From: Lactobacillaceae bacterium
GTDB lineage: Bacteria > Bacillota > Bacilli > Lactobacillales > Lactobacillaceae
Assembly: GCA_031289615.1 (NCBI GenBank)
Contig: JAITPD010000047.1
Location: forward strand, 32,763 to 96,762
Direction of reading: 5' to 3'
DNA: 64,000 nt
This document shows positions 119 to 36,526 of this stretch, piece by piece. Both the position numbers and the translations under genes were made by a program. Position 1 is the first letter of the stretch. Every line of letters begins with the position of its first letter. The notes under the pieces are model-generated. The model saw nothing but the letters and a program-made list of their open reading frames with translations. It had not been told where the DNA came from and did not search any database.

Positions 119-2401
119 TTACTTGCCGGCTTTAGCAGTAAGTTCAGCGATATACGCTAACAAACTTTGGTTATGACCTTGGTTGGCATTCGCTAAACTC
201 AAAGCATCGGACGTCTGTCCATTCATAATCAAAACTTTTCCAACTGCCAAGACACGAGCATCAGTTTGCAAATCTTGATTCTTAAAACTAGTGTCATAAA
301 CGCTCAACTTATTAGCTGCGATGTCCGTATCTAATGGCGTGTAATCTGTTGTGTCAGTAGTCGCTGTTTGCGCAGTTGGTGTTGTAGTTGTATCGGCTGA
401 CTTAGCTTTAGTGCTCTTTTGTAAAGTAATTTGCTTTGCTTGTAGTTCACTGACTTTGCCTGCCATCTCCTTCACATTGGCATCAGCCTTGGATAGTTGT
501 GCTGCTTGTTGTTCAAAACTATAAGCACCACCAGCAATCAATAGTAATGTTGCTGCTGAAGCAATCCCGATTCCAGCTGCTTTAACCCCAGACATGCTTG
601 CTTTAGATACGTTAGCCTTAGCATTGTTTTCAGCTTGTAAATCTTCAATCCGCTTGTTCAAACGTGTAACTTCTTGCACTTGTTCTGGCGAAACAACATT
701 TTGATTCAAGGTGCGAATCTCGGCTTGCTTACTAGCAACTTCATTCTTTAATTGAGCGTTTGCTTCACCCATGGCATAAAGTTGATCTTGTAAATCACCA
801 AAGCGTTCACCAGATTCATTTAAAGATTCATTTTTGTTGGCTAAGGTTAAGCGTTGATTTTCTAATTCCATTGCTTTTTGATGATCCATCGCATAAATCC
901 TTTCTTGACGTTGCATTTCCTCACTTTGTGAATCAATTAATGCATTCATGTATTGAGCTGAGGCAGCTTTTAATTCAGTCATGATTGGATTTAAGGCTGC
1001 TTGTGCGTGTTGATTTGCTTCATCAATCATCGCTTGTTTATCGTTTTGAACTTGAGTTTGGACTTCAACAATCTTTTCAGCGTAGCGATCACGGCGAATA
1101 TCAATATATTCTTGTTCAATCGCTACTTGCAGATTATCTCGTTTTGCTTGTGCTGCATTTTGAATCTTAGTAATTTCAGCGCGATGACGTTGGTCTTCTG
1201 CTTCTTTATCATCAAGTTCTTTTTGATCAAGCATGGCTTTACGTTCCACATACGCTGCATTCTTATCAACCTTTAGTTGCTCATCTACCTTAGTAGTAGT
1301 AACCTCGGCTACATTATTGTCGGCATCAAATGCTTTTACATCGTTCAATAATTGGTTATTGCGTGTTTCTAACTCTTTGGCCAAACGCTCTTGCGCTGAT
1401 GTGTTCAACGTTGCTTGAGCACTTAATCGTTGTTCATTGAATTGACGCTTTAATTCATTCAATTTGAAATCAACATAATCTGCACTGAGTTCATCAACCT
1501 GATTCAAGCGCTTAGTTTCAAGCTCTGGAATCTTAATACCCGCATCATCAGTTGGAATTGATACCAGTGGTTCACTAGCAATTGGTGTGACAGGAGCGAC
1601 GGGCAATACAGGACTAGAAACTTTTACAGGCTTTTCCACAGGTTGTGCCACTGAAGTAACATCAACAGCTTGGCTTACTGGTTCAGCCACCACAGGAGTT
1701 TGAGTAGCTTCTGAAATAATTTCAGCTTGTTTTGGTGCAGGAACTGGAACTTCAACCGGTTCAGGATCAAGATCTTCTTCAATGCCAGTAACTCCAACTA
1801 CGTCAACATGCTTTTCAGCTTGGAAATTCTTATTCCAAACATTAGCTCCCGGATATTCAACAGAATCCATGACGTCAATTTGATAAATCTCATAGAATAA
1901 TGGTCCGTATGCCTTTTCATACATCTTAAGAATGCTATCGGTATACTCAGAACGAGCATCGTAGTCAGCTTCTGCTAAGGGCATGTTAAACATGTATTCA
2001 GCAATTACTTGTGGTAAATGTACAATCCGATCATTTAAAGTCACATCAATTGGATGACGATCTACAATTTCTTTTGCTGGTTGCACATTCTTTTTAGTCC
2101 GTGCACCAATTTGTGGGTAGTCGTATTCAACTAACGTCAATTGATCGAGTTTTAAATTATCGAACTTCATCCGCAGATTAATTAACAACCATTCAGTAAA
2201 GTACAAACTTGCAAATGGTTTGGTTTTATCGAAACTTTCAACTCCAGTTGTCTCAATCTGGTCTTCAGTTTCTTCTAGAATCTTGGACCAGATAGAATCT
2301 GTTTCAAACTTGGCGATAAATGCACTCAAATCAAATTGAAATTTGTCGTCGAGAATCATCTCATCGACTGGTGCACTTTTTTTACTAAATGGTAACTTCA
2401 T
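119..2401 (-). CDS. Element-encoded coiled-coil protein with C-terminal TM segment, unknown function (conjugation-associated by context)
   Basis: Long ORF; start reassigned to MKLPFSKK with SD GAGGGAAATT; Q/E/K-rich coiled coil then hydrophobic AAGIGIASAATLLLIAGGA. Confidence 0.7.
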   Translation of the reverse strand: MKLPFSKKSAPVDEMILDDKFQFDLSAFIAKFETDSIWSKILEETEDQIETTGVESFDKTKPFASLYFTEWLLINLRMKFDNLKLDQLTLVEYDYPQIGARTKKNVQPAKEIVDRHPIDVTLNDRIVHLPQVIAEYMFNMPLAEADYDARSEYTDSILKMYEKAYGPLFYEIYQIDVMDSVEYPGANVWNKNFQAEKHVDVVGVTGIEEDLDPEPVEVPVPAPKQAEIISEATQTPVVAEPVSQAVDVTSVAQPVEKPVKVSSPVLPVAPVTPIASEPLVSIPTDDAGIKIPELETKRLNQVDELSADYVDFKLNELKRQFNEQRLSAQATLNTSAQERLAKELETRNNQLLNDVKAFDADNNVAEVTTTKVDEQLKVDKNAAYVERKAMLDQKELDDKEAEDQRHRAEITKIQNAAQAKRDNLQVAIEQEYIDIRRDRYAEKIVEVQTQVQNDKQAMIDEANQHAQAALNPIMTELKAASAQYMNALIDSQSEEMQRQERIYAMDHQKAMELENQRLTLANKNESLNESGERFGDLQDQLYAMGEANAQLKNEVASKQAEIRTLNQNVVSPEQVQEVTRLNKRIEDLQAENNAKANVSKASMSGVKAAGIGIASAATLLLIAGGAYSFEQQAAQLSKADANVKEMAGKVSELQAKQITLQKSTKAKSADTTTTPTAQTATTDTTDYTPLDTDIAANKLSVYDTSFKNQDLQTDARVLAVGKVLIMNGQTSDALSLANANQGHNQSLLAYIAELTAKAGK

Positions 2402-2624: not shown

Positions 2625-4781
2625 CTAGATATTCAATTCTTTGTTTTGATTAATTTCTGGTCCGTTATCAATTTGCTGATCAATCTTTGGATATTCCTTA
2701 GTTAGTCTTTTTGAAATACTAGTAAACACGTCTTCATCATTTTGGAGTGCACCAAGAAATTCAGATGGTGTAAACTTGTTACGTTCTGCAAATTCAGGTG
2801 ACCAGATTTCGTTGAACGTCTCATTCGCTGAGAAACTATCCAATGCTTCTTTTAAGCCCTTGGCAACTTCTTCTGGATGAACATTTTGATGAAGAATGAA
2901 AGGTTCATAGTCATCTGGATCATAAACAGATACCATAGAATGATTTGGCCCTTCAACATAGATCCCCATGTTCCCATCTGAGTCTGCTGAACGTTCACCA
3001 TATTCTGCATTACCAAAATCAAGAGGATATTCGTCAAGCATTGCCGGAACTAAATATTTCGCAGCAACTGTCATATCAGATAAATCACGTTTCTCGTGAA
3101 TTTCTGTCAGAAGCTTTTTAATATCCATCTTTGATTCGTTTTCTTGACCCCTGAATGACACAAATGTTGTATCATACCTACCACTTGATCGATTAAATTC
3201 AATAGGGCTCACATCAATTGCAGTCTTAGCGTTATTTTCATCTACTTCAGTGGCTGTAAGTGTAATGTCTTTTGGAAATCCATCTATATTGTCATCTTTA
3301 TTAAACGACATGATAAGGTTATTTTCTTTATTGAGAATATACTCAACACCGTCTGGCAGTCTTTGTACTTGTGAGCTGTTTAGATAATCATAGAATTCAT
3401 CAGTTGCCGCATCAAGTAAAATATCAGTCCTTGGCGTGATTTCGTGTTTAACTGGTTCAATATTATCGTATGCTGTAGCAATACCAAGTTTGTTGAGCGA
3501 TTCTTCAGAGAAACCACCGTGCTTAGTTATCAAGGCTGCCAGTTCATCGGCCTCAGGACTGAAGTGCTCAAAGTCTTCAACAAATATTTCATCACTGATT
3601 TCATAATCATATTCACCTACAGACATAAATGATAGCCTGAGGTTTGATCTGTCACCATCCGCATCAATATAAACGGATTGTTCCACAAATGTTTCGTCAT
3701 TGAAGTACAAATCATTTTTTGAAGGATCCCCGATAGCATGCTTTTCGTCGTCATCATGCGAGTGAGGCCAAGGATAGTAGTTTCCGCGGTTTGATAACAT
3801 TTCCTGCCATGCAGTAACAGTGCTATCTAGCTTATTTTCATTTTGGGTCATTTTATTTCCTCCATTTCTACGTGCATTAATAATATTTGATATTGTTCCA
3901 AAGGGGCGTTCAAGTACTGGGTTAGCATATGGTACCGGATTGATTTTGTTTTGAATATCAGAAACTAAATTAGTAATCATATCTAGCTCACTTAAATTAC
4001 TAATTTGGTACAAATCATTTATTGCGAGAATTTTTACAAAATGTGGATTAGATTCCGATATTTGCATAACTGCAAGAATTTGTTTCTCTGGCAGGCTATC
4101 GTAAGTGCTGCGATTCGTTGTATTTAATATAGAAACAGGAATTGAGAAAGCATCTTTAATATCTCTTAACGCAATCAACATGTCATTAGGATTTTTCAAT
4201 GCATTTTGGAAGTTCATATTTTGGGGTTGTTTAATGTTTTCAAAATCGCTTAAAATTGTGTTGTTAGTACCAGAAAGGTCTGTTATATTTTCTAACACTG
4301 CTAACTTTTGAAAAGTTGCTCCAAAATTGTGAACGAGAATATCATTTTGCTTTGTATTACCATCCACAATATTAGACAGTGTTTGTTCTGCTGACATTCC
4401 GTCAAAATAGACACCAGATAAATGAGAAAATTGTCCTTTTTTAAATGTTACTGGTAAATCAACCAGGTTTTCTTCGTCTTTATAAATATAATGAACCGTA
4501 GTATTTGCTAAATTGCTTTGAAAATAATCGGCTGTGTTTTTCAGAATATCTGAAAATTGGTTTAGTTGCTCTAATTCACTAGTATTTATACTGTGGAAAC
4601 CTTTTCTTAACACTGTCTTTTTATCCTTAGTTACGCTATAATGTAAATAAGGATGTGTCGTGTTAAATGCTTGTCCGTTAGAGGATAAGGGGTAGCCATT
4701 GCCATCGGATGTTTCATCTGTAAATTCTGGCGTACTAATTGACGACATGTCTTTTTGTTTGTCTTCATTATCGTTATTCAT
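2625..4781 (-). CDS. Polyvalent-type protein with PBECR4-like N-terminal domain and C-terminal module shared with the next gene
   Basis: ADYFQSNLANTTVHYIYKD...FKKGQFSHLSGVYFDG...ATFQKLAVL resembles phage-BECR nuclease domain 4; SD GGAGGGAAATAAA-ATG. Confidence 0.65.
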   Translation of the reverse strand: MNNDNEDKQKDMSSISTPEFTDETSDGNGYPLSSNGQAFNTTHPYLHYSVTKDKKTVLRKGFHSINTSELEQLNQFSDILKNTADYFQSNLANTTVHYIYKDEENLVDLPVTFKKGQFSHLSGVYFDGMSAEQTLSNIVDGNTKQNDILVHNFGATFQKLAVLENITDLSGTNNTILSDFENIKQPQNMNFQNALKNPNDMLIALRDIKDAFSIPVSILNTTNRSTYDSLPEKQILAVMQISESNPHFVKILAINDLYQISNLSELDMITNLVSDIQNKINPVPYANPVLERPFGTISNIINARRNGGNKMTQNENKLDSTVTAWQEMLSNRGNYYPWPHSHDDDEKHAIGDPSKNDLYFNDETFVEQSVYIDADGDRSNLRLSFMSVGEYDYEISDEIFVEDFEHFSPEADELAALITKHGGFSEESLNKLGIATAYDNIEPVKHEITPRTDILLDAATDEFYDYLNSSQVQRLPDGVEYILNKENNLIMSFNKDDNIDGFPKDITLTATEVDENNAKTAIDVSPIEFNRSSGRYDTTFVSFRGQENESKMDIKKLLTEIHEKRDLSDMTVAAKYLVPAMLDEYPLDFGNAEYGERSADSDGNMGIYVEGPNHSMVSVYDPDDYEPFILHQNVHPEEVAKGLKEALDSFSANETFNEIWSPEFAERNKFTPSEFLGALQNDEDVFTSISKRLTKEYPKIDQQIDNGPEINQNKELNI

Positions 4782-4808
4782 TTTATTTCCCTCCAATTAC
4801 TCCCACAG

Positions 4809-7382
4809 TTAAATGCTTTTATCCTTCTCCTGGTCAATTTGAGGTGCAGCAATATCTAATACTGGCATTCCAAAATCACGGCTAATTTCATTCGCCTTAT
4901 TCTCAAAGAATACTTGATCTTCTTGTAGCTCTTTCAGGTACTCATCAGCAGGATGATAATCTGCAAAAGTTGCGCCATACATATCAGGCTCTTGATCTTC
5001 ATCATATAAACTTGCCATATTGTTAAATGTTTTGTTGGCGTCAAAATTTTCCAATTCACTAACAATTACGTCTGCTAATTGTCCAGGGTGAATTTGCTGC
5101 TCAAGGCCGATGCCATTATTTTCAGCGAAAAAGTCATTTGAATTATATACGGTTATTGGCGTTTGATCTTCACGCCCAATTTCCAGTGAATGTTCAACCT
5201 CATTTAAACCAGCGTCCAGAACAAATGCTTGATCTAAGCCATACATATCAGCCATTGGTTGCAACAAGTACTTAGTTGCAACTGTCATATCAGATAGATC
5301 TTGATATTTATTAGTTTTAATTAGCAATGCTCGAATTTGTTTTGATGAGTTGGTTGATTCGGTTATATGTTCAAATCCATACCTCTGCACGGGGTTTTGA
5401 ATCATGAATGCTACTGCATTCGTTGATGTATCGAAGGGTTCATTAGCCGTGCCTGACGCATAAACATGAACTTTGTCGTTAAGTTTAAGATGGTTATCTT
5501 CCGAAGATCTGTTGTCATCCATTAACCAATCATGAATTTCAGCAGCCTTTGCTGTTAACAGTACATCCATTTGCGTTGTAATTTCAGGTGTTACAAGCTT
5601 CTTTTCTGATACTAAGTTGGCTTCAATTGATTCTTGCTTATTAAGCCTAAATGTCAATAATTCAGCAGTTGGTGCCTTAACATCAACCATCATTGCATCA
5701 TTACCATAATATTCACGTGATACATTTCCAATTTCGTCAAGGTCCACACCATCTTTAAACATCCGATCTGACACTTGAGCTAATGCTGATTGAAGTTGAT
5801 CTGGATCTTCTGCAATCCAACCTATTTGGTTTTCTTTTATCTCATCACGTTCGTTCCAAGCTTGATCCGCAATATCGTATGCTAAGTCACCAAGGACCGC
5901 TTGTGAATAAGGATCAACTTTGAACACCTCCTTAATTTCTAAAAAATCTTCAGGCTCCCATGTTCCATTATCAATTTTTTCTGTTAGTTCATTTTTAAAC
6001 TCAACCCACTTTTCACGATGTTCAGTGGTATTCAGTGCTGCTAACTGTTCATAAAATCCAAGCGTTTCTGGATATTGTTCAAGAATGTTATTCTTCAAGA
6101 TTTTAGTAGGATCACCATTAGCAGTAATATCTCCCTCTTCACCATTCCAAGAATAAACTGGATCATCCGCTTTGCTCATATTGTCCTCCCACAAGCGAAC
6201 ACCAATATAGCCATCTTCATCTGGTTCTGCATCTGTTACTAATCGCTCATGTTGTGAAACTGGAATGTCTTCAATCCCATCAGACTCCACAAACTGTTTA
6301 ATTGTTTCATCAAACAGTTTGCGACCTGGTGTTTCAAATACAACGCTATCTGGGATAATCTGTAATCCATCGGGTGATTCTTCAACAACTGGTAAAGTGG
6401 TCCTCCATTCATCAGTTGCTTCTTCCCGTGCAGTGTCTAGCTCATCATTGAACTGGTCACTAACACGTTCAACTTCAGCTTGAGTATTTTCATTGGTATG
6501 CTCCTCTAACCAGGCATCAACATCCGAATCCATTGCCCAACCAAACCAGTCTTCTAGGTCAGGACCAGGCATCGGATTGTCTGAAAATTCTGGTTCTTTG
6601 GTATACCAACCAACATAATTTTGAATTTCATCTAGAAATTCATGTTCTTCAAGTGGGCCACCATAGTTCAAAACAAACTCGTCTTCTAGTTCTTCTGGAA
6701 TGTGGCCAAAATCATATGGCAAATCAAAATCATTTTTTTCAAAAACGGCTTTTTGACGAGCTGCAACTCTGTAATTTAAATTATCATCGTCATTGGATAG
6801 ATCAACATACTTTGCCTCAGACATATCTGTAATCCTTAAATTAGCTGGATCAAAGACGACAATTTCTTGATCAATGACGCCATTGCCATTGTCATGCTTG
6901 GTAATTACATGCGTCCGGCCAAGCTTGGTCAATTCATTAGCAACCAAATCTCCACTTCGACCTGTTAAATTATGAAGTTCATTAACAATATCAATGTCAC
7001 TTGCATTACCTAACAATTGATTGGCCAGATCATATGTCAAGCCATGATTAATCGCACTCCATTCCTCAGTGGTATTTTCAAAAAAATCTGACAACAAATA
7101 TGGATACCCATCTTCTTCAATCTGGCGCATTGTAATGCCTTGTACGATTGATTGAATATCATTGGGGGATAAAGTGCGTTCTGTTCCCGAAATTGAATCC
7201 TGCAAGTTTGCCCGTACTTCATAAACATACCCATCCTCATGCTCCGAGTATGCATATGCTCGCGTCATTGAATCGGTTAAATACGTTCCAAAACCATTTT
7301 GTCGACCGGAACGGGCCTCATATTCGTTATTAAATGAATCAAATTTTGTTGGACTACCATGATATAGTGTTCGTGTTGTCAT
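4809..7382 (-). CDS. Polyvalent-type protein with N-terminal ADP-ribosyltransferase-like (ART) domain
   Basis: N-terminal LYHGSPTKFDSFNNEYEARSGRQNGFGTYLTDSMTRAYAY typical of ART-PolyVal domains; shared C-terminal module (DLSDMTVATKYL, HPGQLADVIVSELENFDANKTFN). Confidence 0.65.
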   Translation of the reverse strand: MTTRTLYHGSPTKFDSFNNEYEARSGRQNGFGTYLTDSMTRAYAYSEHEDGYVYEVRANLQDSISGTERTLSPNDIQSIVQGITMRQIEEDGYPYLLSDFFENTTEEWSAINHGLTYDLANQLLGNASDIDIVNELHNLTGRSGDLVANELTKLGRTHVITKHDNGNGVIDQEIVVFDPANLRITDMSEAKYVDLSNDDDNLNYRVAARQKAVFEKNDFDLPYDFGHIPEELEDEFVLNYGGPLEEHEFLDEIQNYVGWYTKEPEFSDNPMPGPDLEDWFGWAMDSDVDAWLEEHTNENTQAEVERVSDQFNDELDTAREEATDEWRTTLPVVEESPDGLQIIPDSVVFETPGRKLFDETIKQFVESDGIEDIPVSQHERLVTDAEPDEDGYIGVRLWEDNMSKADDPVYSWNGEEGDITANGDPTKILKNNILEQYPETLGFYEQLAALNTTEHREKWVEFKNELTEKIDNGTWEPEDFLEIKEVFKVDPYSQAVLGDLAYDIADQAWNERDEIKENQIGWIAEDPDQLQSALAQVSDRMFKDGVDLDEIGNVSREYYGNDAMMVDVKAPTAELLTFRLNKQESIEANLVSEKKLVTPEITTQMDVLLTAKAAEIHDWLMDDNRSSEDNHLKLNDKVHVYASGTANEPFDTSTNAVAFMIQNPVQRYGFEHITESTNSSKQIRALLIKTNKYQDLSDMTVATKYLLQPMADMYGLDQAFVLDAGLNEVEHSLEIGREDQTPITVYNSNDFFAENNGIGLEQQIHPGQLADVIVSELENFDANKTFNNMASLYDEDQEPDMYGATFADYHPADEYLKELQEDQVFFENKANEISRDFGMPVLDIAAPQIDQEKDKSI

Positions 7383-25089: not shown

Positions 25090-28000
25090 TTACTTATCTG
25101 AATCTTGACGCTTCTTAGCAAGCAGTCCCGTGATTGCCAACAAGAAGGCACTCAACCCAACCATTACTAACTCTGGGCGTTGTTGCATTGCAGCTCCCGT
25201 GTTAGGTAAGACCGCAACTCCATTATCTAATGAATCCTCGATTTGTGTTAAACTAGCGCCTTGTTTAGGTTCAGTTTCAACTGGAATCAAAGCATCTTTC
25301 AATGTTGGTTCATGCGTTTCTGTTTTGATTGGCTTAGGATCAACAGGCGATACTACCTGTTTAGCTGTATTGTCGTAGAAGTCCTTTGCATTCACGCTCA
25401 AAGGTGCTCCAACCGCCGTCTTAGTAATTTGGCCGTCACCATTTTGATTAGTAACGCCCCCATCGTCAGTAATGACTTGGCTTTGAATCTTAGTTACTAA
25501 GACTTGTTGGTGATCTGTGCCATCATTAATTAGCACATCACTGGTATACGTTCCGTCATCGTTTAAGTGCGAGTAACCCGTTGGCACATTCACGTTCACG
25601 TCTTGGTGATTAGTGATTTTAACATCACTGGTTCCAATCACATTGCCGTTTTGATCCACGAATTCAACGGTGACTGTTTGATAGAAATCATCAGGGTTAA
25701 CTGAGATTGGGTCATCAACGACATCTTTTTGAACCACCGCTGCCCCAACTGATTGTTGGTTTGCATCAGATACGTTACCCGCATCATCGGTTGCTGTGAC
25801 AGCAATTACATCACCAATCTGAGCACTTGGTACGTCAATGCTATAAGCTCCGTCATTACCAGTTTGTTGTGTCAGCTTAGAACCATCCGCAGTAATCACC
25901 GTGACTAATGAATTAGGTTCAGCGGTTCCAGAAACGGTGGTTGTACCACCATCTGGACTAACCGGAGTCACCGCTTCACTTGGCATGTCGGGCGCTGTAA
26001 TGTCTGAGTAAACAACCGACACAACATTATTGATTGAATCACCAGTTAATGTCTCGGCAGCTGCGCCATTTTGATCAGGTGTTAACCCGCTCAATGCTGG
26101 GGCGTTCACTGCGTTAAGCTCAGCATTATCTGAAACCCATGCTGTGTAACTAACTAAACCAGTTGCAGCATCCGTGGTTGCCACTCGCGTGAAGTTCGCT
26201 GTTTGCAAGACACTTGGCAATAAATCATTACCCTTAGCGTCCACGAACTTAACTAATCGTGAAATCGTCTTAGCTTCATCTTGTGAGCTCGTCTTGTGTG
26301 TCAAATGCACTGTAATGACTTGTCCACCGTCAGCGCTGAATGTGCTTGGAATCTCAGTTCCAGCTACTAAGTTATAATTGGCTGGTGCACTTGGGGTAAA
26401 CTCAACCGCTTGGTCAGTTACACCATTAAGTGTATTTGAATCAACGATTGCACTGTTATCATCATCGTCTACATAATTTACTGTAATCGTTTGGGCATTT
26501 GGCGTATACGTTACGGTTGTATAACGATCTGAAATCAAATCTTCTGGTGAAACACTATAATCATACTGATTGGTCAATGGGAAAAATTCATCGTAGTCAA
26601 CACTAGTCGTCAATGCTGTATATCCTGCTATTTCAGGGGTTGCAGTAGTCATCCAATCGGTACTTGTCATGCGTTCACCATTGACTGACCTTAAATCATA
26701 CAAACCAACACCCGACACATCATCACGCTCTTCATCTAATAATAAATTATAAACAACGTCCACTGGTGTTTGATCACCAGCACCAACATAATGAATTGTA
26801 AATGTCCGCGTAAATTGAGAATCTGTCATGTGGTGGTAATAGTGAACTGTAATTACTTGACCACCGTCAGAGCTAAATGTTGCCGGTTGGCCAGTTACAT
26901 TTACAAATACATAACCAGCTGGAAGATAATCAGGTGTAAACACAACTGCTTGATCTGTAATTCCATCTAGTGTTTCGGTTTTTATCAATGAACTAGTCTT
27001 AAGATCCAAACTATGCCGGTCTGTTAGTGTGCTAAAATCATCGTCGACATAGTTGACGGTAATGCTTTGAGCATTCGCTGCGTAACTCACGTTGACCGTT
27101 TGGTCAGCTGGTGCAGTTGTGCTAGTTGCATCAAGATTAACAGCGCCGATTGTTGCTGTATAACCGGCCACGTCTTGAATGTCACTATCTTGCATTAGTC
27201 CATACTTACCAAGCGTGTAAGTCGTTACACCTGTGACCAGGTTTGTGTCGGTATCATAACCGACTTTACTTGCGTCATAACTAACATTTTTGGCAGTTGG
27301 CAATCCAGTTGCGACATAATTAATCGTTTGGACATAACTACCGGTCGTGTGCTTTTCAGTCACCGTCATCTGATAGATGTTACTTGCTGGGTCCGCCTTA
27401 AACGTTGTCCCCATTCCACCACTCGTAAAGTTGTACTTGTCTGTTAGCGCAACGATTGCATCGTTGACACTACTCCAGTCAATCAATCCGTCAACCACAC
27501 CACTCACTTCAAAGCTTTGCACAACCTTATTGCCATTATCAGTATCGACAATGTTCAACGTAGCTGTCGTTGCATTGGCTGTATATGTGACTGTCACGGA
27601 ACTAATTGTACCGTTAGTTGAACTTGTTGCTGCCACAGAACTTTGATTTGGCGTATAACCTGCTACAGCTGGGCTATTAATCGCGTCAAATTGCGCTTCA
27701 GTCCAAGTAATCGCTCCCGTCACCAAGTCAGTAATCTTAGTCGCGTTCACTGTTTGGTTTTGACTTGCGACAGCTTTGTCACTTGGCAAACCAGCATAGT
27801 TGACCGTTTCAGTGACGGGCACTAATTCACTCGTCGTGGCGTGCTTTAGAAGCACTTGATACGTTTGACCATTAATTGTTCCATCAGACCCAACCACTTC
27901 ACTAAACGTTTGGGTGGTAATTCCTGTTACTTTGGTTCCATCAGCTAATTGATAGCCGACTAAGACATAATTATCTGGGATGGTGACTGTACCGTCGTAC

Positions 28001-30870
28001 TTCGTTCCAATTGCGCCGGTATCCGTTACTGTTGAAAGCACTTTGTTACTATCATCTGAATCAATCAAGTTATAAGATGCTGTCACTGTGCGTGTCGCTT
28101 TAATCGTGTTGGTCGTTGACAAAGCGGTTGAAATGGCTGAACCATCGGCGTTCAATGGTTGGGTAGTCCATGTCACAGCTAGTGACTTACCAGTCACAAT
28201 CGTTGTATCAGGATCATCTAATGAGACGGTTGCAATAATCTTGGCAATCTTAGCTTGAGCAATTGAAACCCCACTAATTTGGATCGAAACAGCTTGGTCA
28301 TAGGTCGTGACAATACCTTGCGCTGTTAGATAAACAATTGTTGCGCCAGTAATTGGGTTACCGTCTACATCAACAATTTGAATTGGGGCGGTTAAATGCA
28401 CGCCTAATTGATTAGTACTATCGCGCAAATTCAAAGTCGTTAGTGTATCTGGCACATCACTCTTCATTCCGTCATACAAGATGTCAGAAATGGTGAGTGT
28501 GTTACTCTTTGACAAATCAATGGTCCCAGTTGAAGCTTGTACTGCTGTGTCACCAGAACCTTGAATGCTGGTTTGTTGATAATATGTGGCTGGTGCAACA
28601 ACCGTACCTAGCATTCCTTGTGCACCATCATAAATAATTGTAGTTCGATCACCATCAGTTGAAAAACTATCTCGAGCCAATGCCGTTGCGTTTGTCACTG
28701 TCTCTATATTCAAGTTTTGAACGATTGTGTTGTCAAATGTTAACGTGACATTTGGTTGCCCAATCACTTCACCTGGATATGCTGAAGGCAACGGCACTAG
28801 TGTATAAGTGACCGCTAAGGAGTTGTTTTGAGATGTGGTCCCTGCGTATTGGACCGTGGTGGTTACAGCGGTTGGGTCGTATGTGATGGTTAAAGTTTTC
28901 ATATCAGCAGAATACGTGTACACAAGACCTTTGGTCGGAATGCCATTAGATCCAAATATTGTGTCCTTTGGCGCCGTTAGTACCCAAACCGGATTAGCTA
29001 CTGCAATTGCTTTTATAAATGGTGTTGTGAGCAATCCAGTCTCAGACACGGTTATATATATAGTAGACCCAGTACCCGCCCCGACAGTCATTGCGGCATT
29101 ATAGTCACTTTGCACCATTCCACTATTGGTCATTTGATAAGAGGGCGCTGTAATAAACTTAATACCCGAAAGGATGTCACCTGGTAACAAATTGCTGGCT
29201 CTTGTCGCACTTAACCCTGAATTATTATCTACCGCTGAATAACTATTGTATGTCCTTGACATGTATCCTAATTGCGATGGATCAATCAATGAAACATTAC
29301 CATACAAAGCCCCTTCTGTTGACCAAATCATAGTTCCGCTATTTAGTGCTAACGTTGCAATGTTTTTAATTGGGTCCACCGTTGAATCAATCGCAAGTGT
29401 CTGCATGGTCCCGTCACCAACAATTGTAATCACCTGACCCGATGCAAGTGTAATCGTATAAGTCACACCGTTTGTCGTTTGAATACCGGTAATATTGTAA
29501 TTCATATTAGTCGTTGAAAAATCTTCTGAATCAGAAAGCGTATTATCTGGATTTGGATCAATGTAGTTTGCTGTAGCAGTTGCGCCGATTGTAATGACCT
29601 TTGTCGTATTTCCGGCTTGTGCAACCTCCGTTAAAGCACTCACGTGGGAACCATCGTTGATATTATATCCACCTGCAATGCGTGCTAATGATACATTTGT
29701 TCCAATTTGTCCAGCCGTACCAGTATAGCTAAAAGATTGCTCATCAAGCGCTCCTGTTATAATCGCTCCGGTCCAAGGAGTTGACTCTTTTGTTGAACCG
29801 TCAATCGTGTGCCAGTTGACCTGTACTGATGAGCTTGACATCGATACAATTGTTGAATATGGTGTCCCAGCGGCGATCGTGATGGTCACCGTATTATCAG
29901 TATTGGTATAACTGACACCGGCTGGTAATGTTCCTAACCACGTCACGCTGTCGATTTGAACATTAGTCAAGGCACTGTATGTGAACACAATGTCTTGCGA
30001 CACAACTGCTGAAGAGCGCGTGAATGCGTTACCCCCATTGCTGAGAATTTGATACAATCCATATGGATTAAGGGATAATATTCCGTCCGACACAACGGTT
30101 CCATTTGATGTAATGGCCTCGTTGGCAACTCCATAAGAACTGCCAACGTTTTTAATATATATAGCTGGATTTTTGAATGTATATACTTTGTTGACGGTGA
30201 TGTCTAAATCATCCAATGCCGCTCCATTAAGAATTGTACTAACCGTTGAGGTGGCTGACTGTAGTCCGTTGGCCCAACTTGAAGTCGCCTTAGGAAGATT
30301 GTTATATTTTACATAAATCGCGATTGACGCCGTCATGTCTTGGGTAAACGTATAGGTTACAGTTCCTGCAGTTGTATTAGTTGAAACAGTTGTTCCTGCT
30401 ACTGTATCATTTTTAACCCAGGCAAAATCATTTGGATTATAGTTAAACGTCAATTTGTCACCCGCTTTAAAAGTTCCAGTCTCTGTCACCGGAATAAAAC
30501 TGGCGGTTGCTAAATCAGTGTCAGTCCAAGTCTGTTGACCCGTCAATGAATGTGTCGCCACTGCGGGTGCATCACTCGTTGCCGAACTAGCGGTACTATC
30601 TGCCGCTGAACTGGCGGTTGAATCAGCTTCACTAGCAGCCGAGCTTGAATCGTCAGCTGTTGAATCGGGAATACTTGCTGATGATAATGCGACCACATCA
30701 CCATCATCTGGGGTATCAGCAGTTACTTCGCTCACAGGTGCCCCGCTATCAGTATCATCAGCATGGGCTAGGCTAACACCACCCATTGTCATTAATGTTG
30801 CACTTGCAATTCCTGCAAAGAGCCACCGCTTGCCTGCTTTATACATCTTAAAGTGTAAATTCTTATCCAT
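25090..30870 (-). CDS. LPxTG-anchored mucus-binding/MucBP-like adhesin with KxYKxGKxW-type signal peptide
   Basis: FKMYKAGKRWLFAGIASATLMTMGGVSLAHA; repeated YVDDD...LNGVTDQAVEFTP..Y modules; C-terminal LPNTGAAMQQRP...LLAKKRQDSDK. Confidence 0.92.
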   Translation of the reverse strand: MDKNLHFKMYKAGKRWLFAGIASATLMTMGGVSLAHADDTDSGAPVSEVTADTPDDGDVVALSSASIPDSTADDSSSAASEADSTASSAADSTASSATSDAPAVATHSLTGQQTWTDTDLATASFIPVTETGTFKAGDKLTFNYNPNDFAWVKNDTVAGTTVSTNTTAGTVTYTFTQDMTASIAIYVKYNNLPKATSSWANGLQSATSTVSTILNGAALDDLDITVNKVYTFKNPAIYIKNVGSSYGVANEAITSNGTVVSDGILSLNPYGLYQILSNGGNAFTRSSAVVSQDIVFTYSALTNVQIDSVTWLGTLPAGVSYTNTDNTVTITIAAGTPYSTIVSMSSSSVQVNWHTIDGSTKESTPWTGAIITGALDEQSFSYTGTAGQIGTNVSLARIAGGYNINDGSHVSALTEVAQAGNTTKVITIGATATANYIDPNPDNTLSDSEDFSTTNMNYNITGIQTTNGVTYTITLASGQVITIVGDGTMQTLAIDSTVDPIKNIATLALNSGTMIWSTEGALYGNVSLIDPSQLGYMSRTYNSYSAVDNNSGLSATRASNLLPGDILSGIKFITAPSYQMTNSGMVQSDYNAAMTVGAGTGSTIYITVSETGLLTTPFIKAIAVANPVWVLTAPKDTIFGSNGIPTKGLVYTYSADMKTLTITYDPTAVTTTVQYAGTTSQNNSLAVTYTLVPLPSAYPGEVIGQPNVTLTFDNTIVQNLNIETVTNATALARDSFSTDGDRTTIIYDGAQGMLGTVVAPATYYQQTSIQGSGDTAVQASTGTIDLSKSNTLTISDILYDGMKSDVPDTLTTLNLRDSTNQLGVHLTAPIQIVDVDGNPITGATIVYLTAQGIVTTYDQAVSIQISGVSIAQAKIAKIIATVSLDDPDTTIVTGKSLAVTWTTQPLNADGSAISTALSTTNTIKATRTVTASYNLIDSDDSNKVLSTVTDTGAIGTKYDGTVTIPDNYVLVGYQLADGTKVTGITTQTFSEVVGSDGTINGQTYQVLLKHATTSELVPVTETVNYAGLPSDKAVASQNQTVNATKITDLVTGAITWTEAQFDAINSPAVAGYTPNQSSVAATSSTNGTISSVTVTYTANATTATLNIVDTDNGNKVVQSFEVSGVVDGLIDWSSVNDAIVALTDKYNFTSGGMGTTFKADPASNIYQMTVTEKHTTGSYVQTINYVATGLPTAKNVSYDASKVGYDTDTNLVTGVTTYTLGKYGLMQDSDIQDVAGYTATIGAVNLDATSTTAPADQTVNVSYAANAQSITVNYVDDDFSTLTDRHSLDLKTSSLIKTETLDGITDQAVVFTPDYLPAGYVFVNVTGQPATFSSDGGQVITVHYYHHMTDSQFTRTFTIHYVGAGDQTPVDVVYNLLLDEERDDVSGVGLYDLRSVNGERMTSTDWMTTATPEIAGYTALTTSVDYDEFFPLTNQYDYSVSPEDLISDRYTTVTYTPNAQTITVNYVDDDDNSAIVDSNTLNGVTDQAVEFTPSAPANYNLVAGTEIPSTFSADGGQVITVHLTHKTSSQDEAKTISRLVKFVDAKGNDLLPSVLQTANFTRVATTDAATGLVSYTAWVSDNAELNAVNAPALSGLTPDQNGAAAETLTGDSINNVVSVVYSDITAPDMPSEAVTPVSPDGGTTTVSGTAEPNSLVTVITADGSKLTQQTGNDGAYSIDVPSAQIGDVIAVTATDDAGNVSDANQQSVGAAVVQKDVVDDPISVNPDDFYQTVTVEFVDQNGNVIGTSDVKITNHQDVNVNVPTGYSHLNDDGTYTSDVLINDGTDHQQVLVTKIQSQVITDDGGVTNQNGDGQITKTAVGAPLSVNAKDFYDNTAKQVVSPVDPKPIKTETHEPTLKDALIPVETEPKQGASLTQIEDSLDNGVAVLPNTGAAMQQRPELVMVGLSAFLLAITGLLAKKRQDSDK

Positions 30871-30912
30871 TATGTTTATCTCCATTAAAAAAACGTTATT
30901 TTGCTCTTATAC

Positions 30913-31673: not shown

Positions 31674-32933
31674 CTATAACCCGATTTCTTTATCAACTGA
31701 AATGTCACCACGTGAAGGTCCAAAGTTATCGTGGTTCATTGATAGACCATAAATTTCAGCATCAAAATGTGTTAAAATATCATTTAATCCAGTATTAGCA
31801 TTTAATCCTGAGAAAAACTCATGTGATCCTTCATCAATTAAGATGTTTGGTTGGTTACTTTCATTCACTTCATACAAACTCAGGTATTGTGAGCCGTGTT
31901 CGTCGTCGTTTTTCCAAACCAACAATTGGATTTCATGAGGTGCCTCTTCTGTACCAAGATTGATTGAAGCAATATCACTCTCATTATCAACAAACTCGTC
32001 ATCAAACTTTGACAAATCACCAAGATGTTCTCTGTATTCGTCAGCAATGAATTTCTCTACTCGATCTAATAATTCACCTTTTAGTTGATGTTTTTGTGCT
32101 TGATCATAACTGGGGTAATTTGCATTAATTGAATCGACAATCGCCACAATATCATCAGCATTATCAAACTTAAGATAGTCATATGCAGGCATAGACGTTC
32201 CATCAAAATGCTTGAATTCATCCAGGAAGCGCCCACCCATATCGAATGAATAAGGGCGAGCAGTTAAGCCGACATTATCTGCATAAAGTGTTTTAGTCGA
32301 ACGTGGTTGCAAGTAATCAGCATAGCCAACCTGAATACCACGTTGTGTTTTATCATCCCAAATATTCATGGTCTTAAGTGGTTGGTCCGAATCCTTGCTG
32401 TTGACAATTTTCCACCAGGCTTCACTAATGTTATTAGCCCGATCTTTATTATTGGTATCAAGATCAAGTGCTGATTTTTCTACTTGAATATTTTTAATCT
32501 TTTCCATACCCTTAGGAAAGAGCAAAGGTGTTGCAAACTTCTTTTCATTACTATAATCAGGCAATTCTTGCACCCAATTGATATATTCAACAAATTTATT
32601 TTCTATCTCGGCAAAATTATTTTCAATAATCTGCTTTTGCTTTTTAGGAAGACTAACTATTTCGTCACCAACCATGTTTTGATTTCTTACAAATACGGCT
32701 TTTTGAAAATCTAATCCTGGGCGTTTGAAATGAGTATTATTGGTTGAAAATACAGTTAAATATTTACTTTTATCTGATGACTTTTTTGATAAATTACTTC
32801 TTAAGGGAATGAACCAACCACTTTCGTCTAAGACACCTAAATATGGTCTATCATCCTTAGCTAATAATTGTTCACTACCAGTTTCTGCATAAGCATTAGC
32901 AAAAAATTCTGTCGTTAAATAAGTAAAACGCAT
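31674..32933 (-). CDS. TenpN/AbiQ-like (type III toxin-like) N-terminal domain fused to unknown C-terminal region
   Basis: DRPYLGVLDESGWFIPLRSNLSKK...RPGLDFQKAVFV...LPKKQKQIIENNFAEIENKFVEYI; paralogous N-terminus with 33251-36226. Confidence 0.55.
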   Translation of the reverse strand: MRFTYLTTEFFANAYAETGSEQLLAKDDRPYLGVLDESGWFIPLRSNLSKKSSDKSKYLTVFSTNNTHFKRPGLDFQKAVFVRNQNMVGDEIVSLPKKQKQIIENNFAEIENKFVEYINWVQELPDYSNEKKFATPLLFPKGMEKIKNIQVEKSALDLDTNNKDRANNISEAWWKIVNSKDSDQPLKTMNIWDDKTQRGIQVGYADYLQPRSTKTLYADNVGLTARPYSFDMGGRFLDEFKHFDGTSMPAYDYLKFDNADDIVAIVDSINANYPSYDQAQKHQLKGELLDRVEKFIADEYREHLGDLSKFDDEFVDNESDIASINLGTEEAPHEIQLLVWKNDDEHGSQYLSLYEVNESNQPNILIDEGSHEFFSGLNANTGLNDILTHFDAEIYGLSMNHDNFGPSRGDISVDKEIGL

Positions 32934-33054
32934 TGTAATATCTCCTTAAATTTTGTATAATTAACGTAGGGTTCCGGGCAAGGCATGCCTTGAATGTCTC
33001 ATGAGTTAGCGAACCCCCTACATAATTTTTAGCGCTGTTATTAGCGCTTTTTTT
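32933..33054 (+). ncRNA. Candidate ncRNA 1 (promoter TTGTAA-N17-TATAAT; RNA about 32968-33054)
   Basis: -35 32933-32938, -10 32956-32961; stem GTAGGGTTC/GAACCCCCTAC; terminator AGCGCTGTTATTAGCGCTTTTTTT. Confidence 0.55.
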
Positions 33055-33058
33055 GTTG

Positions 33059-33245
33059 TATAATAACTTTGTAAAGCCGGCAGCTCTAGCTGTTAATGAG
33101 AGCCATTAAATCCTCCACAACACTGTTTTGAATCCGAGTTTGGGTGTTAAATAGCGGGTACAGGGACGCGTAACCCTTGATTGCGCCATAGAGCAGGCCC
33201 GCTATCCATAAACAAAGTCACCAATTCTGGTGGCTTTTATTTTTG
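33059..33245 (+). ncRNA. Candidate ncRNA 2 (-10 TATAAT 33059-33064; RNA about 33071-33245)
   Basis: Stem ATAGCGGG(33151)/CCCGCTAT(33198) enclosing possible pseudoknot; terminator AAAGTCACCA-ATTC-TGGTGGCTTTTATTTTT. Confidence 0.5.
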
Positions 33246-33250
33246 CTTTG

Positions 33251-36226
33251 TTAAATGTCCATTGCCTTATCAACAATTTGTTGGTTATTTGCAACTTCAA
33301 CCTGTGGTTCTGACATAAACGTCTCATCGCCACGGACCCATGCTGCCAACTCAGGAACCGTGTATTCTTTAACAGATTCAAGGTTTTCAGCGCTCGTCCG
33401 GACCAAAATTGATCCAGATTCACCTTGTGAATAACCAATCCAGTCATCAGCAGCAATTCGAGCTGTTTCCCCAGCTTCTTCTAACGCCTTATTCACACTG
33501 TCAGCAAGTTTAGAAACACCAGTATATTTAATGTAACCTGCCATTGACTCAACCAAATCATTCTTCAAATCTGAATATTCAATTTGCTTAGCAACTTCAT
33601 TTGAAGTCAAGTTACTCATTAGTTCATCCCAGTTATCAACCATGTTGCCCATGCCTTCAACTAATGGCGTTCCATCATATTTCTCGTCAACTTGTGGGTA
33701 AAAATCCATTTGGGTTAAAGTCCAAACACGTTTGTTTTCGGAATCAATTGTTGAATTAGTTTTAATTGAACCAGCAAAGTCCTCAAAATTGTCTTTCAGT
33801 ATGTCTGGATAATCTTCAATCATGGCCGTAATGACCTTTTCTTGAATATCCTTTCCCCAATAATGAGCAAGATGTTCAGGGTCATATGCATAACCTTGTT
33901 CATCACCGTATACCAACATTTCAGCCATATTCTTCTCAACGTCATTTGAATATTTTTGGAATGACGATACCATTGCGCTAAACTCTGAGGGCTCAAGGTT
34001 TGAGTCGACGTCATATTCAGTTGGTACATTAGCCATTGGTTTTGCATTTTCTTGAATTTGCTCCAACATTTTAGCGTTCCGATTAACGGCTGATGATGTC
34101 ATAATTCCAGCTTGTTCAAGATCAACGCTGGTAAATGCGGCTAAGTTAATAAAGACTGACTTATCCTCATTTCTATACTGAGGTTGAACCAAACTTTGAT
34201 GACGATCATAAGTCGCATCTTCACCGATAGCAGCAAACACATCATGATGTACTTCTTCAATTTGGTCATTCTCCCAGGTAAATGTAATGTTACCCTTCTC
34301 GTTTACTGCAACTTCTTTCACTTGAATATGCTTGTTTTGAGAAGGGGTTACACAATCTTCTGGATTAGTGGCAGGTTCCTTTAACAATCGTTCTTTCAAC
34401 CATCCAACACCATTATATGTTGAATCTAAATTACCATCATCGATGTCAACATATTCCAGTTTTGAGCCATGCTTTAGCACATGATTTCCAGACCCAATCT
34501 CCATTAAATTAGCAACGTCATGTTCTGCAATTTCTCGATAAATTTGATCTCGATCTTGAATTTGTTCCAGGGTTGGTTCGATTAGTAAGAAATCATCATG
34601 TTTATCATTAGGCTTAATGTACCAGTTCCCAACAGCAACATCGCTTGTTTCCAACAGCTCTTGAATACCATCTACTCCTTCTACATTGATTTGCGGTGTT
34701 TGCTTCATAAAGACCATTTCATTCGACATGGACAGCATTGAATTTTCAGTATAAAAGTCCGCTACTGTATCGGTTAATGCATCACTCTCATGATATAAAC
34801 TAACTGGTTGTGCAAAGTTTTGATCTGTACTCATTTCTTTAACCTCTTCTATTTCTTTAGTTAGTGTGACTAAGCTGACATATGAATCGTTAGCATTCCA
34901 ATTCTCAATTTCACTATTAAGAAAACTTGTCATCATTTCTTTTTGAAAATCCCAATCTGGGTGGAATTCATCAGCGTCTGTTGCATATCTTGCTGCATTG
35001 ACGTGTAGTAACATTTCATCTGGAATTTTAACGCCTTCTTGTTCAGCCTGAATTACATTGTATTTAGTCAAAAATTCCCCCAACATTGCTAATTCGTCAC
35101 CATCGATATGCCCGAGGCGTGATCCGAAATCGAGGCCACGGTCTAAAGCATCACCATCTACTCCATAAATGATCAAACCCTCCACTTCTCGATCAGTATC
35201 TTTGTATCTAGTTGCACGAAGATCACCATTGGTCATTGTTTCTAAATTTTGTTCTAAATCTGAGTAAACACCCTCAACTAAATCACCAACATTTTTGTAT
35301 TGTGCTAACGTTTTAAGTTCAATTTTCTCTGCCATGTTGTTATCTCCGTATGCTTGATTATATTCATCTAAAAATTGGGTTATTTCTTGCTCTTCTACCT
35401 TTAAATAATTGGTTGTTGATTGCATGAAGTTTTCCCGCTCTCCGTACCGTTTATAAAGATTAACCAATTCAATCTGTTTTTGTGGTGTTAAATTGATAAT
35501 TTCATTTGACGGTTCAGGTCCAAAACCGTGATACCAAAAATCATCTTCATCTCGGGGTTCATCAAAGCCCAATGCACCATAGTGTTCACGCTCATTAACA
35601 TAATCTGGAACGAATTGCTTTGCTTCATTGTTGAGTTGATGTTCAATAACGTTTCGATGCATTGAAGAATACCAATATAAATCCTGTCCATTTGCCATTT
35701 GTGCTTGCTCCATTTCTAACTGATTGGGATCCTTATATTTAACGACATCACCCTCTAACCCAAACAGATCAACTCGTTGTCCTATCAATCTTTCTATTCC
35801 TTCTGGATAAAATGGGATGGTACTCATTACTACATTGGGATGTGTTGGTGGCAGCTTAAGGATTCTCTTTGTATATTTAGTGAATTGCCTCTCCAAATTT
35901 AAAATATTATTTTCTATATATTGATACTGCAATTTTGGAACGGTGTTTTTAATATCCAGTAACGCGCTATTATCAGTTATATAAATAGCCTTTTGTAAAT
36001 TCAATCCTGGTCTTTTTAGATGTGGATTGTTGTTCTTAAAAGGTGTTTCAAACACACCATCTTTTGGTGCCTTCAATGTGAGCTTTCCTTCTAACGGCAC
36101 AAACCAATTTGTTTCTTCATCAAATATACCTACATAAATACGATTATTTTTTTCATCGAACTGATTAGAGCCAGTTCTTGCCTTTTCTTCTGCCAAAAAA
36201 CGTGGGTTTAACCATTTGACTTTCAT
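33251..36226 (-). CDS. Giant polyvalent-type protein with TenpN/AbiQ-like N-terminal domain
   Basis: NRIYVGIFDEETNWFVPLEGKLTLK...HLKRPGLNLQKAIYI...VPKLQYQYIENNILNLERQF aligns with 31674-32933 N-terminus. Confidence 0.55.
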   Translation of the reverse strand: MKVKWLNPRFLAEEKARTGSNQFDEKNNRIYVGIFDEETNWFVPLEGKLTLKAPKDGVFETPFKNNNPHLKRPGLNLQKAIYITDNSALLDIKNTVPKLQYQYIENNILNLERQFTKYTKRILKLPPTHPNVVMSTIPFYPEGIERLIGQRVDLFGLEGDVVKYKDPNQLEMEQAQMANGQDLYWYSSMHRNVIEHQLNNEAKQFVPDYVNEREHYGALGFDEPRDEDDFWYHGFGPEPSNEIINLTPQKQIELVNLYKRYGERENFMQSTTNYLKVEEQEITQFLDEYNQAYGDNNMAEKIELKTLAQYKNVGDLVEGVYSDLEQNLETMTNGDLRATRYKDTDREVEGLIIYGVDGDALDRGLDFGSRLGHIDGDELAMLGEFLTKYNVIQAEQEGVKIPDEMLLHVNAARYATDADEFHPDWDFQKEMMTSFLNSEIENWNANDSYVSLVTLTKEIEEVKEMSTDQNFAQPVSLYHESDALTDTVADFYTENSMLSMSNEMVFMKQTPQINVEGVDGIQELLETSDVAVGNWYIKPNDKHDDFLLIEPTLEQIQDRDQIYREIAEHDVANLMEIGSGNHVLKHGSKLEYVDIDDGNLDSTYNGVGWLKERLLKEPATNPEDCVTPSQNKHIQVKEVAVNEKGNITFTWENDQIEEVHHDVFAAIGEDATYDRHQSLVQPQYRNEDKSVFINLAAFTSVDLEQAGIMTSSAVNRNAKMLEQIQENAKPMANVPTEYDVDSNLEPSEFSAMVSSFQKYSNDVEKNMAEMLVYGDEQGYAYDPEHLAHYWGKDIQEKVITAMIEDYPDILKDNFEDFAGSIKTNSTIDSENKRVWTLTQMDFYPQVDEKYDGTPLVEGMGNMVDNWDELMSNLTSNEVAKQIEYSDLKNDLVESMAGYIKYTGVSKLADSVNKALEEAGETARIAADDWIGYSQGESGSILVRTSAENLESVKEYTVPELAAWVRGDETFMSEPQVEVANNQQIVDKAMDI

Positions 36227-36335
36227 AGGTATTCTCCTTATAATTAAAGTATTAAGAATTCAGTCGGTACAAGCAGCAGGTGCTTAGAAGCCTGTCATAG
36301 ATTAGGCCGTTGGATTCTTTTTATTTTGTCTTTTT
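36216..36335 (+). ncRNA. Candidate ncRNA 3 (promoter TTGACT-N17-TATAAT; RNA about 36251-36335)
   Basis: -35 36216-36221, -10 36239-36244; H-type pseudoknot candidate AAGCA/TGCTT with CAGG/CCTG; U-rich 3' end TTTTTATTTTGTCTTTTTT. Confidence 0.5.
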
Positions 36336-36439: not shown

Positions 36440-36526
36440 AAAAACATATAGGTGATTTGTCTCACAGTGAGACGAATCACCTATATGTTACCCATGGTTT
36501 ATATATACCCCGGTATAGGCCTAGGC
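36440..36526. repeat. Palindromic repeat R3, inverted copy of R2; terminator for topB
   Basis: ACATATAGGTGATTTGTCTCACAGTGAGACGAATCACCTATATGT (36444-36488), T tract on minus strand. Confidence 0.95.

Follow-up and report, generated by a model that had tools for sequence, protein, structure and literature searches.

The window, a stretch of 64,000 nucleotides of Lactobacillaceae DNA, probably carries a type III-like toxin-antitoxin system whose antitoxin is a divergent, separately transcribed and mostly single-unit pseudoknot RNA. In relatives of this system the toxin-like domain is fused to ArdC and metallopeptidase modules. A type III-like variant with divergent RNA had been proposed in a sequence-only reading of the window, and it is supported by structural models with the ToxN fold and by a conserved, covarying RNA on the opposite strand.

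Toxin-like domain of the two proteins

Two open reading frames on the minus strand encode protein 1 (31674..32933) and protein 2 (33251..36226). Their boundaries were confirmed, and the chains are 419 and 991 amino acid residues long, so the description of both as giant proteins does not suit protein 1. The N-terminal segment of about 150 residues is common to the two proteins; the alignment of its motifs noted earlier was reproduced, with an identity of about 34-35%. Residues ~1-150 are TenpIN/ToxN-like in each protein. Protein 1 contains the canonical IPLRSN motif, while in protein 2 the IPLRS sequence is replaced by the divergent VPLEGK. Against the NCBIfam TenpIN model protein 1 gives E=8e-14 and 52 bits, below the cut-off of 90, and protein 2 gives E=3.7e-4, also below the curated cut-off.

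The AlphaFold models of the N-terminal domains have pLDDT values of 87.8 (protein 1) and 87.0 (protein 2). Type III toxins were the top PDB matches of both models in Foldseek, as the earlier reading anticipated: AbiQ (4glk, rank 1), ToxN (2xd0, rank 2) and CptN (4rmo, rank 4) for protein 1, and ToxN (4ato, rank 1) and CptN (4rmo, rank 3) for protein 2. The Foldseek probability of the type III toxin matches is 0.90-1.00, yet their E-values are only about 0.01-0.06. With protein 1 as the query, a profile search of solved structures found ToxN 4ato at E=0.0085, whereas a single-sequence search gave no relevant match. As judged from these models, the domain that begins both proteins is of the ToxN/AbiQ/CptN/TenpN fold. 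PADLOC matched neither protein.

No Pfam match was found in protein 1 or 2, including the C-terminal parts (~270 residues in protein 1 and a long segment in protein 2). The suggested fusion to polyvalent conjugation proteins is seen in relatives, where ArdcN (ArdC-N) and MPTase-PolyVal domains follow the toxin-like domain. A second conflict-related domain is present in the same polypeptide in six loci (L003, L004, L005, L011, L014 and L018). The polyvalent proteins surveyed in phages and conjugative elements (PMC5512222) are similar in having ArdC-N and MPTase-PolyVal fused, but the C-termini of proteins 1 and 2 have no recognised domain; the words ToxN, AbiQ and RNA antitoxin are absent from the main text of that survey. 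The phage records searched contained neither a homologue of the domain nor one of the RNA. Elsewhere in the window there are a PBECR4 match and a weak ART-PolyVal match.

Other plasmids, from lactic acid bacteria and relatives of these, show the same pairing of domain and RNA. The loci are located in mobilisation regions, and the window genes are part of a conjugative element. Four weak protein matches (L020-L022 and L024) were dropped as homologues because their sequences resemble tRNA methyltransferases, and the partial matches L041-L057 (E about 5e-4) were left out of the family.

Residues Arg29 and Lys78 are invariant across the family domain. The canonical TenpN Ser/Thr of the IPLRS motif is retained only in protein 1 and in L009; this position is Ala in most members, and protein 2 and its relatives have EGK or EGR. 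With the canonical Ser missing in most members, some of these domains may bind RNA and yet be non-toxic. Extended to the whole family, this would mean that the ToxN-like domain has lost its toxin function and become an RNA-binding module, tethering a pseudoknot RNA that regulates, or rides with, the fused anti-restriction/metallopeptidase protein. The retention of the RNA and the pairing after loss of the Ser, and the fusion to ArdcN and MPTase-PolyVal, are in favor of such a module. However, the full canonical motif is present in protein 1 and L009, and the RNAs in genomes lacking the domain, described below, fit best with a harmful domain. The change from Ser to Ala may also be tolerated, since a mapping of the catalytic residues of TenpN itself was not found in the literature. 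We consider loss of toxin function throughout the family unlikely.

Predicted RNAs encoded in the window

RNA1 (32966..33054, plus strand) consists of a closing stem P0 and an H-type pseudoknot with the stems S1 (GGGC/GCCT) and S2 (AGGCAT/ATGTCT). Its predicted promoter, TTGTAA-17-TATAAT (32933..32961, plus strand), has a -35 element that begins on a base of the protein 1 start codon. The intrinsic terminator on the plus strand (33031-33048, followed by a T run) is separate from P0. The covariance model matches positions 32969-33016 with 21.9 bits, and the pseudoknot template gives P=0.008. Single-strand minimum free energy folding was uninformative (z=-0.3), as is expected of a pseudoknot.

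RNA2 (about 33065-33241, plus strand) is located between the two protein genes and has two pseudoknot units. Unit 2a (33059..33115, plus strand) includes the -10 element TATAAT (33059-33064) and has S1 CGGC/GCTG and S2 GCTCT/AGAGC; the template gives P=0.012, a closing 3' arm is not evident, and the unit was missed by the covariance model. Unit 2c (33150..33241, plus strand) has P0 and a pseudoknot with S1 AGGG/CCCT and S2 GCGTAA/TTGCGC, and is matched by the covariance model at 33153-33203 with 42.4 bits. It is followed by an intrinsic terminator (33214-33237, plus strand). RNA2 adjoins no 5' end of a toxin gene, unlike RNA1 and RNA3.

RNA3 (36254..36325, plus strand) has S1 AAGC/GCTT and S2 GCAGGT/GCCTGT, and its P0 also serves as the terminator. 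The covariance model matches 36262-36312 with 36.5 bits, and the template gives P=0.004. The -35 element of the predicted promoter, TTGACT-17-TATAAT (36216..36244, plus strand), is just within the start of the protein 2 reading frame.

The promoters of RNA1 and RNA3 thus have the sequences, spacing and positions at the divergent start codons given in the earlier reading, and its hairpin/U-tract ends are found as intrinsic terminators in RNA1 and RNA2 and as the closing stem and U run in RNA3. Its three RNAs are indeed structured, but they comprise four pseudoknot units, since RNA2 holds two. The S1/S2 template exceeds dinucleotide shuffles in each of the four (P=0.004-0.012). At gathering scores Rfam has no match in the window, and in lax searches of two RNA regions all matches were far under these scores.

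Conservation and covariation of the RNA

The divergent RNA was found on the opposite strand in 11 distinct loci, its start lying 29-43 nt away from the start codon of the toxin gene. It is absent beside two homologues, L013 (a MAG) and the remote relative L040. Twelve loci were scanned for sigma-70-like promoters; in each, the top match places its -35 element at -8 to +2 of the start codon, and in ten of them 10-12 of the 12 bases match. The number of units is one in all loci except for window RNA2 (two dissimilar units) and L068 (three).

The common fold, as predicted computationally, is an H-type pseudoknot of interleaved S1 and S2, closed by P0. The H-type pseudoknot is the form of the known type III antitoxins. 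Covariation was found for 16 pairs: over 21 RNAs 95.8% are standard pairs, versus at most 50% for slid structures, both sides change in 14 of the 16, and the covariation score is 0.756 versus 0.05-0.14. The alignment used (A8) was registered by hand with N placeholders and was checked on the covariance-model alignment A9; S1 and S2 are identical in the MAFFT alignment A5, while the whole-unit MAFFT alignments A4 and A6 were not used because the closing stem is out of register. Eight RNAs found by the covariance model alone retain both stems, although S1 was left out of the model; in the held-out RNAs S1 pairs in 31 of 32 cells and S2 in 47 of 48. There are 30 G-U pairs versus 4 A-C pairs, which suggests that the RNA has the sequence of the plus strand. 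The conservation and covariance proposed earlier as a check are therefore observed beside the homologous genes in nearly every locus. The distances of RNA and domain correlate modestly (Mantel r=0.39, P=0.011, n=11), a value that shared ancestry could explain.

The L1 loop is one base in most of these RNAs, and the single-stranded segments TAC, TTGA and CATTAGGT-type are conserved. A cis antisense regulator of type I-like kind, pairing with the complementary leader of the toxin-gene mRNA, would require neither such segments nor compensatory changes that keep a pseudoknot. The RNA gene does lie opposite the presumed leader, and terminator-like hairpins cut off upstream genes in several loci, so the protein mRNA may begin in or near the RNA gene. 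In the window, a strong terminator-like hairpin with a U run (36443..36489, minus strand, z=-7.1) separates protein 2 from the topoisomerase gene; it would split the two mRNAs unless read through. However, the RNA stops short of the ribosome-binding site and start codon, and a genome without the toxin offers no leader as a target, making antisense control improbable.

It is even harder to regard the RNA as a cis-regulatory or transfer structure (a terminator, ssDNA promoter or oriT-like element) unrelated to the domain. P0 with its U run is terminator-like in several loci, and the mobilisation regions would suit a transfer element, but termination needs neither the core sequence nor the pseudoknot, and the correlated distances link RNA and domain. 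Orphan copies away from transfer genes also retain a nearly unchanged core with a different P0. We regard this explanation as very improbable.

RNAs without the toxin-like domain

Five genomes that lack the toxin-like domain carry orphan RNAs, on chromosomes as well, and three of their loci adjoin cas9 or cas1. L068 is a toxin-less cluster of three separate RNA units, to one of which window unit 2a is 90% identical over 51 nt. The 36-bp repeats of L068 were considered as dif/Xer sites and scored no better than shuffles.

The conserved pairing and these stray copies suggest that a toxin-antitoxin system has been rewired and that its antidote RNA also exists as orphans. It is conceivable, though we hold it doubtful, that the orphans provide trans-acting RNA immunity to conjugative elements by binding and disarming the ToxN-like domain of incoming proteins. 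If so, the lone RNAs and small clusters of toxin-less genomes, some near CRISPR-Cas, would be kept against incoming toxin domains. Orphan anti-addiction antitoxins are similar in lacking a toxin and in being close to defence-related genes. They have been reported in plasmid leading regions, where the example discussed is the protein antitoxin hipB (PMC11541004), whereas the orphan here is a pseudoknot RNA and is chromosomal too.

Comparison with known systems and proposed mechanism

The closest known system is TenpIN (NCBIfam NF047358), which shares the homologous toxin domain, the IPLRS...GLDFxKA motif and an RNA partner. Type III systems typically have a single promoter for RNA and toxin, with a terminator separating the two. 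In the canonical TenpIN control loci the RNA is upstream on the same strand, and the covariance search gave no R1 match there. Here, in contrast, the RNA lies opposite to the toxin gene and has a separate promoter. Nearly all loci have one unit instead of a tandem array, and the accompanying domain is fused to larger proteins and often lacks the canonical Ser.

AbiF is a toxin of a different family. AbiF with its RNA resembles the present pair as an RNA-controlled toxin in a defence context (PMC12373285). ToxIN, AbiQ and CptIN share the domain fold and the H-type pseudoknot RNA, but identity to the domain is only 14-19% in the structural matches. Their RNA and toxin genes form bicistronic operons on one strand, and the repeats are processed (PMC5086642); the CptI antitoxin has a one-base L1 loop (PMC4627078).

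For the type III-like system, we propose that the domain at the front of each protein has the ToxN fold, belongs to the TenpIN lineage and is putatively an RNase. A promoter at the start codon of the toxin gene would drive divergent transcription of the small RNA, which would fold into the stem-clamped pseudoknot, bind the domain and keep it inactive. With a promoter of its own and usually one unit, the antitoxin dose would be uncoupled from toxin expression and its mRNA, and the toxin would not need to cut repeats. As the domain is the front of larger transfer-region proteins, it would most likely serve to maintain the plasmid, to act in a recipient that has not yet made the RNA, or both.

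Searches for type III systems have relied on same-strand tandem repeats 5' of the toxin, a definition that misses a divergent single unit. This branch may consequently be unannotated, in line with the missing Rfam match and the TenpIN scores beneath cut-off. The covarying pseudoknots, about 20 in number and 11 of them paired with a domain, form a natural collection for specificity studies. The toxin-less RNAs, some of them near CRISPR-Cas genes, make RNA-based anti-addiction directly testable.

Toxin-like domains of proteins 1 and 2

Proteins 1 (31674-32933, 419 amino acids) and 2 (33251-36226, 991 amino acids) occupy real open frames on the minus strand of a conjugative element, where SSB, topoisomerases, a MobL relaxase and a T4SS coupling protein are encoded alongside them. 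The source contig has 96,762 bases and the genome 2.0 Mb. The window also encodes polyvalent-type proteins (2625-4796(-) and 4809-7382(-)), in which a PBECR4 nuclease domain (1.4e-21) and, weakly, ART-PolyVal are matched, and a cell-wall-type protein of 1931 residues (25090-30885(-)) with repeats and an LPNTG-like anchor at the C-terminus.

The alignment of the two N-termini noted in the sequence-only reading was borne out for residues 1-150. Relatives of this segment occur in Lactococcus, Enterococcus, Fructobacillus, Leuconostoc and one Erysipelotrichaceae MAG; the domain was found in none of 28 other genomes of the window's genus. The NCBIfam TenpIN model matches protein 1 with E=8e-14 and protein 2 with 3.7e-4, both under the curated 90-bit cut-off. 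The AlphaFold models of the domains are confident (pLDDT 87.8 and 87.0, respectively). Their best PDB matches in Foldseek are type III toxins, AbiQ (4glk), ToxN (2xd0) and CptN (4rmo) for protein 1 and ToxN (4ato) and CptN for protein 2, with probabilities of 0.90-1.00 at E-values of only about 0.01-0.06. MazF-like folds rank after these. The models point to the predicted similarity to ToxN-fold nucleases.

In an alignment including canonical TenpN, R29 and P43 are present in every row and G73, L74, K78 and T135 in nearly every row. The active residues of E. coli ToxN are Lys33, Thr52, Ser53 and Lys55 (PMC8860590). R29, which is invariant, would by its place in the alignment be the counterpart of Lys33, itself Arg in some ToxN. 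The Ser/Thr following IPLR is found in all seven canonical TenpN sequences aligned, and within the divergent-RNA family only in protein 1 and the L009 toxin; it is replaced by Ala in most members and by Gly (EGK/EGR) in protein 2, L011 and L012. Retention of this residue makes protein 1 and the L009 toxin plausible RNases.

The proposed fusion to polyvalent proteins was seen in relatives; in the window, the C-termini of proteins 1 and 2 have no Pfam match. At six loci (L003, L004, L005, L011, L014 and L018) the domain lies upstream of ArdcN and MPTase-PolyVal in one protein; at L012 ArdC is encoded in a frame of its own, and at L006 the domain gene is followed by another gene without a recognised match. 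The words ToxN, AbiQ and RNA antitoxin are absent from the main text of the survey that defined polyvalent proteins (PMC5512222).

Structure and conservation of the RNAs

The pseudoknot RNAs are conserved beside the homologous genes at nearly every locus, as had been anticipated. On the strand opposite each gene the order is promoter, closing stem P0, TAC, helix S1, A, helix S2, S1', TGA, S2', CATTAGGTxAGG and P0' (primes mark 3' arms), with a U run immediately 3' of P0' in many loci. The promoter -35 overlaps or adjoins the toxin start codon: in 12/12 loci measured, the best sigma-70-like match places it at -8 to +2 of that codon, and P0 follows the codon by 29-43 nt. Ten of the 12 predicted promoters have 10-12 of 12 consensus bases; those of L011 and L018 have 9/12, no better than shuffles.

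In alignment A5 (MAFFT, 13 cores) 96.7% of the S1 and S2 cells are standard pairs, falling to 33-45% when slid. In A8, registered by hand with N placeholders inserted, the three helices pair in 98.4%, and both sides have changed in 13/16 pairs. The 21 rows of A9 are paired in 95.8% of cells, with a covariation score of 0.756 vs <=0.144 when slid. Its eight rows outside model building pair in 31/32 cells of S1 and 47/48 of S2; several are near kin of L003/L006, and their independence is therefore incomplete. With 30 G-U vs 4 A-C pairs, the RNA is probably the plus strand. The pseudoknot template beats dinucleotide shuffles in all four window units (P 0.004-0.012 each).

The covariance model R1, built from P0 and S2 with S1 left out, matches every toxin-linked locus used in building it, and none of 13 stand-alone TenpIN/ToxN-like loci (L025-L037). 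Scans of sampled genomes, about 500 in number with some genomes repeated, gave hits at only some fifteen places; the E-values of R1 are rough.

RNAs without a toxin

R1 and BLAST also located the RNA without the domain at L068, L064, L069, L073, L076, L077 and L078. At L068, which adjoins a type II cas1, three RNA units can be made out by eye, and R1 scores one of these. Three exact 36-bp repeats (138-173, 632-667 and 1181-1216) lie about 500 bp apart beside this cas1, the first two flanking the segment with the three units, each of which has its own -10 box; as dif sites they were rejected, their dif-likeness being not above chance. The L073 RNA adjoins a Fic gene. The RNA lies near cas9 in L076 (1-982(-), RNA 1501-1551(+)) and L077 (1955-3051(+), RNA 1501-1551(-)), from two related Enterococcaceae genomes, one matching Enterococcus cecorum. 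In both it is divergent to a small ORF without assignment and Cas9 (TIGR01865, 7e-82 in L076), and a Band 7 protein flanks it on the opposite side. A small plasmid of Lactococcus lactis carries the L078 RNA (3000-3050), which has a plasmid recombination gene to one side and a lactococcin-family bacteriocin gene to the other. At L065 (1390-1560, G099:C9) the RNA is upstream of an ArdC gene; a 17-codon open frame lies between, with no recognisable toxin domain.

The toxin domain is absent at E<=0.01 from genomes G023, G173, G326, G923 and G935; G530, which holds L077, carries the L009 toxin elsewhere. In six orphans the core diverges by 0-10% from the RNA of the L006 plasmid or that RNA's neighbours, despite a different P0. 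This would fit a core under selection for a role in trans, with immunity against incoming elements; the simpler alternative is that the orphans are remnants left after toxin loss.

Possible mechanism and relation to type III systems

The RNA would be produced independently from its own promoter and would bind the toxin-like domain, with toxin expression grouped with the transfer genes. Behind the topoisomerase gene the minus strand carries a strong, nearly perfect 47-nt terminator-like hairpin with a U run (36443-36489, z=-7.1). Since it stands between that gene and protein 2, the mRNA of protein 2 may have a start of its own, within the RNA3 gene or close to it; its leader would then be complementary to RNA3 and could conceivably sequester the antitoxin. 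Between the two genes lies the second unit of RNA2. It most resembles the RNA of L011, where the toxin belongs to the protein 2 type, so this unit may serve protein 2 as an additional antitoxin.

Across the whole order, the TenpIN model matches 12 stand-alone toxins (L025-L036) of about 160-200 amino acids, and one further protein weakly. Upstream of these there are repeats or single hairpins on the same strand, followed by a terminator. Four of these Lactobacillales loci of canonical type (L028, L029, L030 and L034) apparently have one stem-closed unit upstream on the same strand, not repeats; it is possible that they are a bridge between both arrangements. Type III systems are defined as a same-strand bicistronic operon with one promoter, a terminator and tandem repeats (PMC5086642; PMC8860590). 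The divergent-RNA loci have components like these but lack two of the defining features, and should therefore be filed as a variant of type III, not as canonical members.
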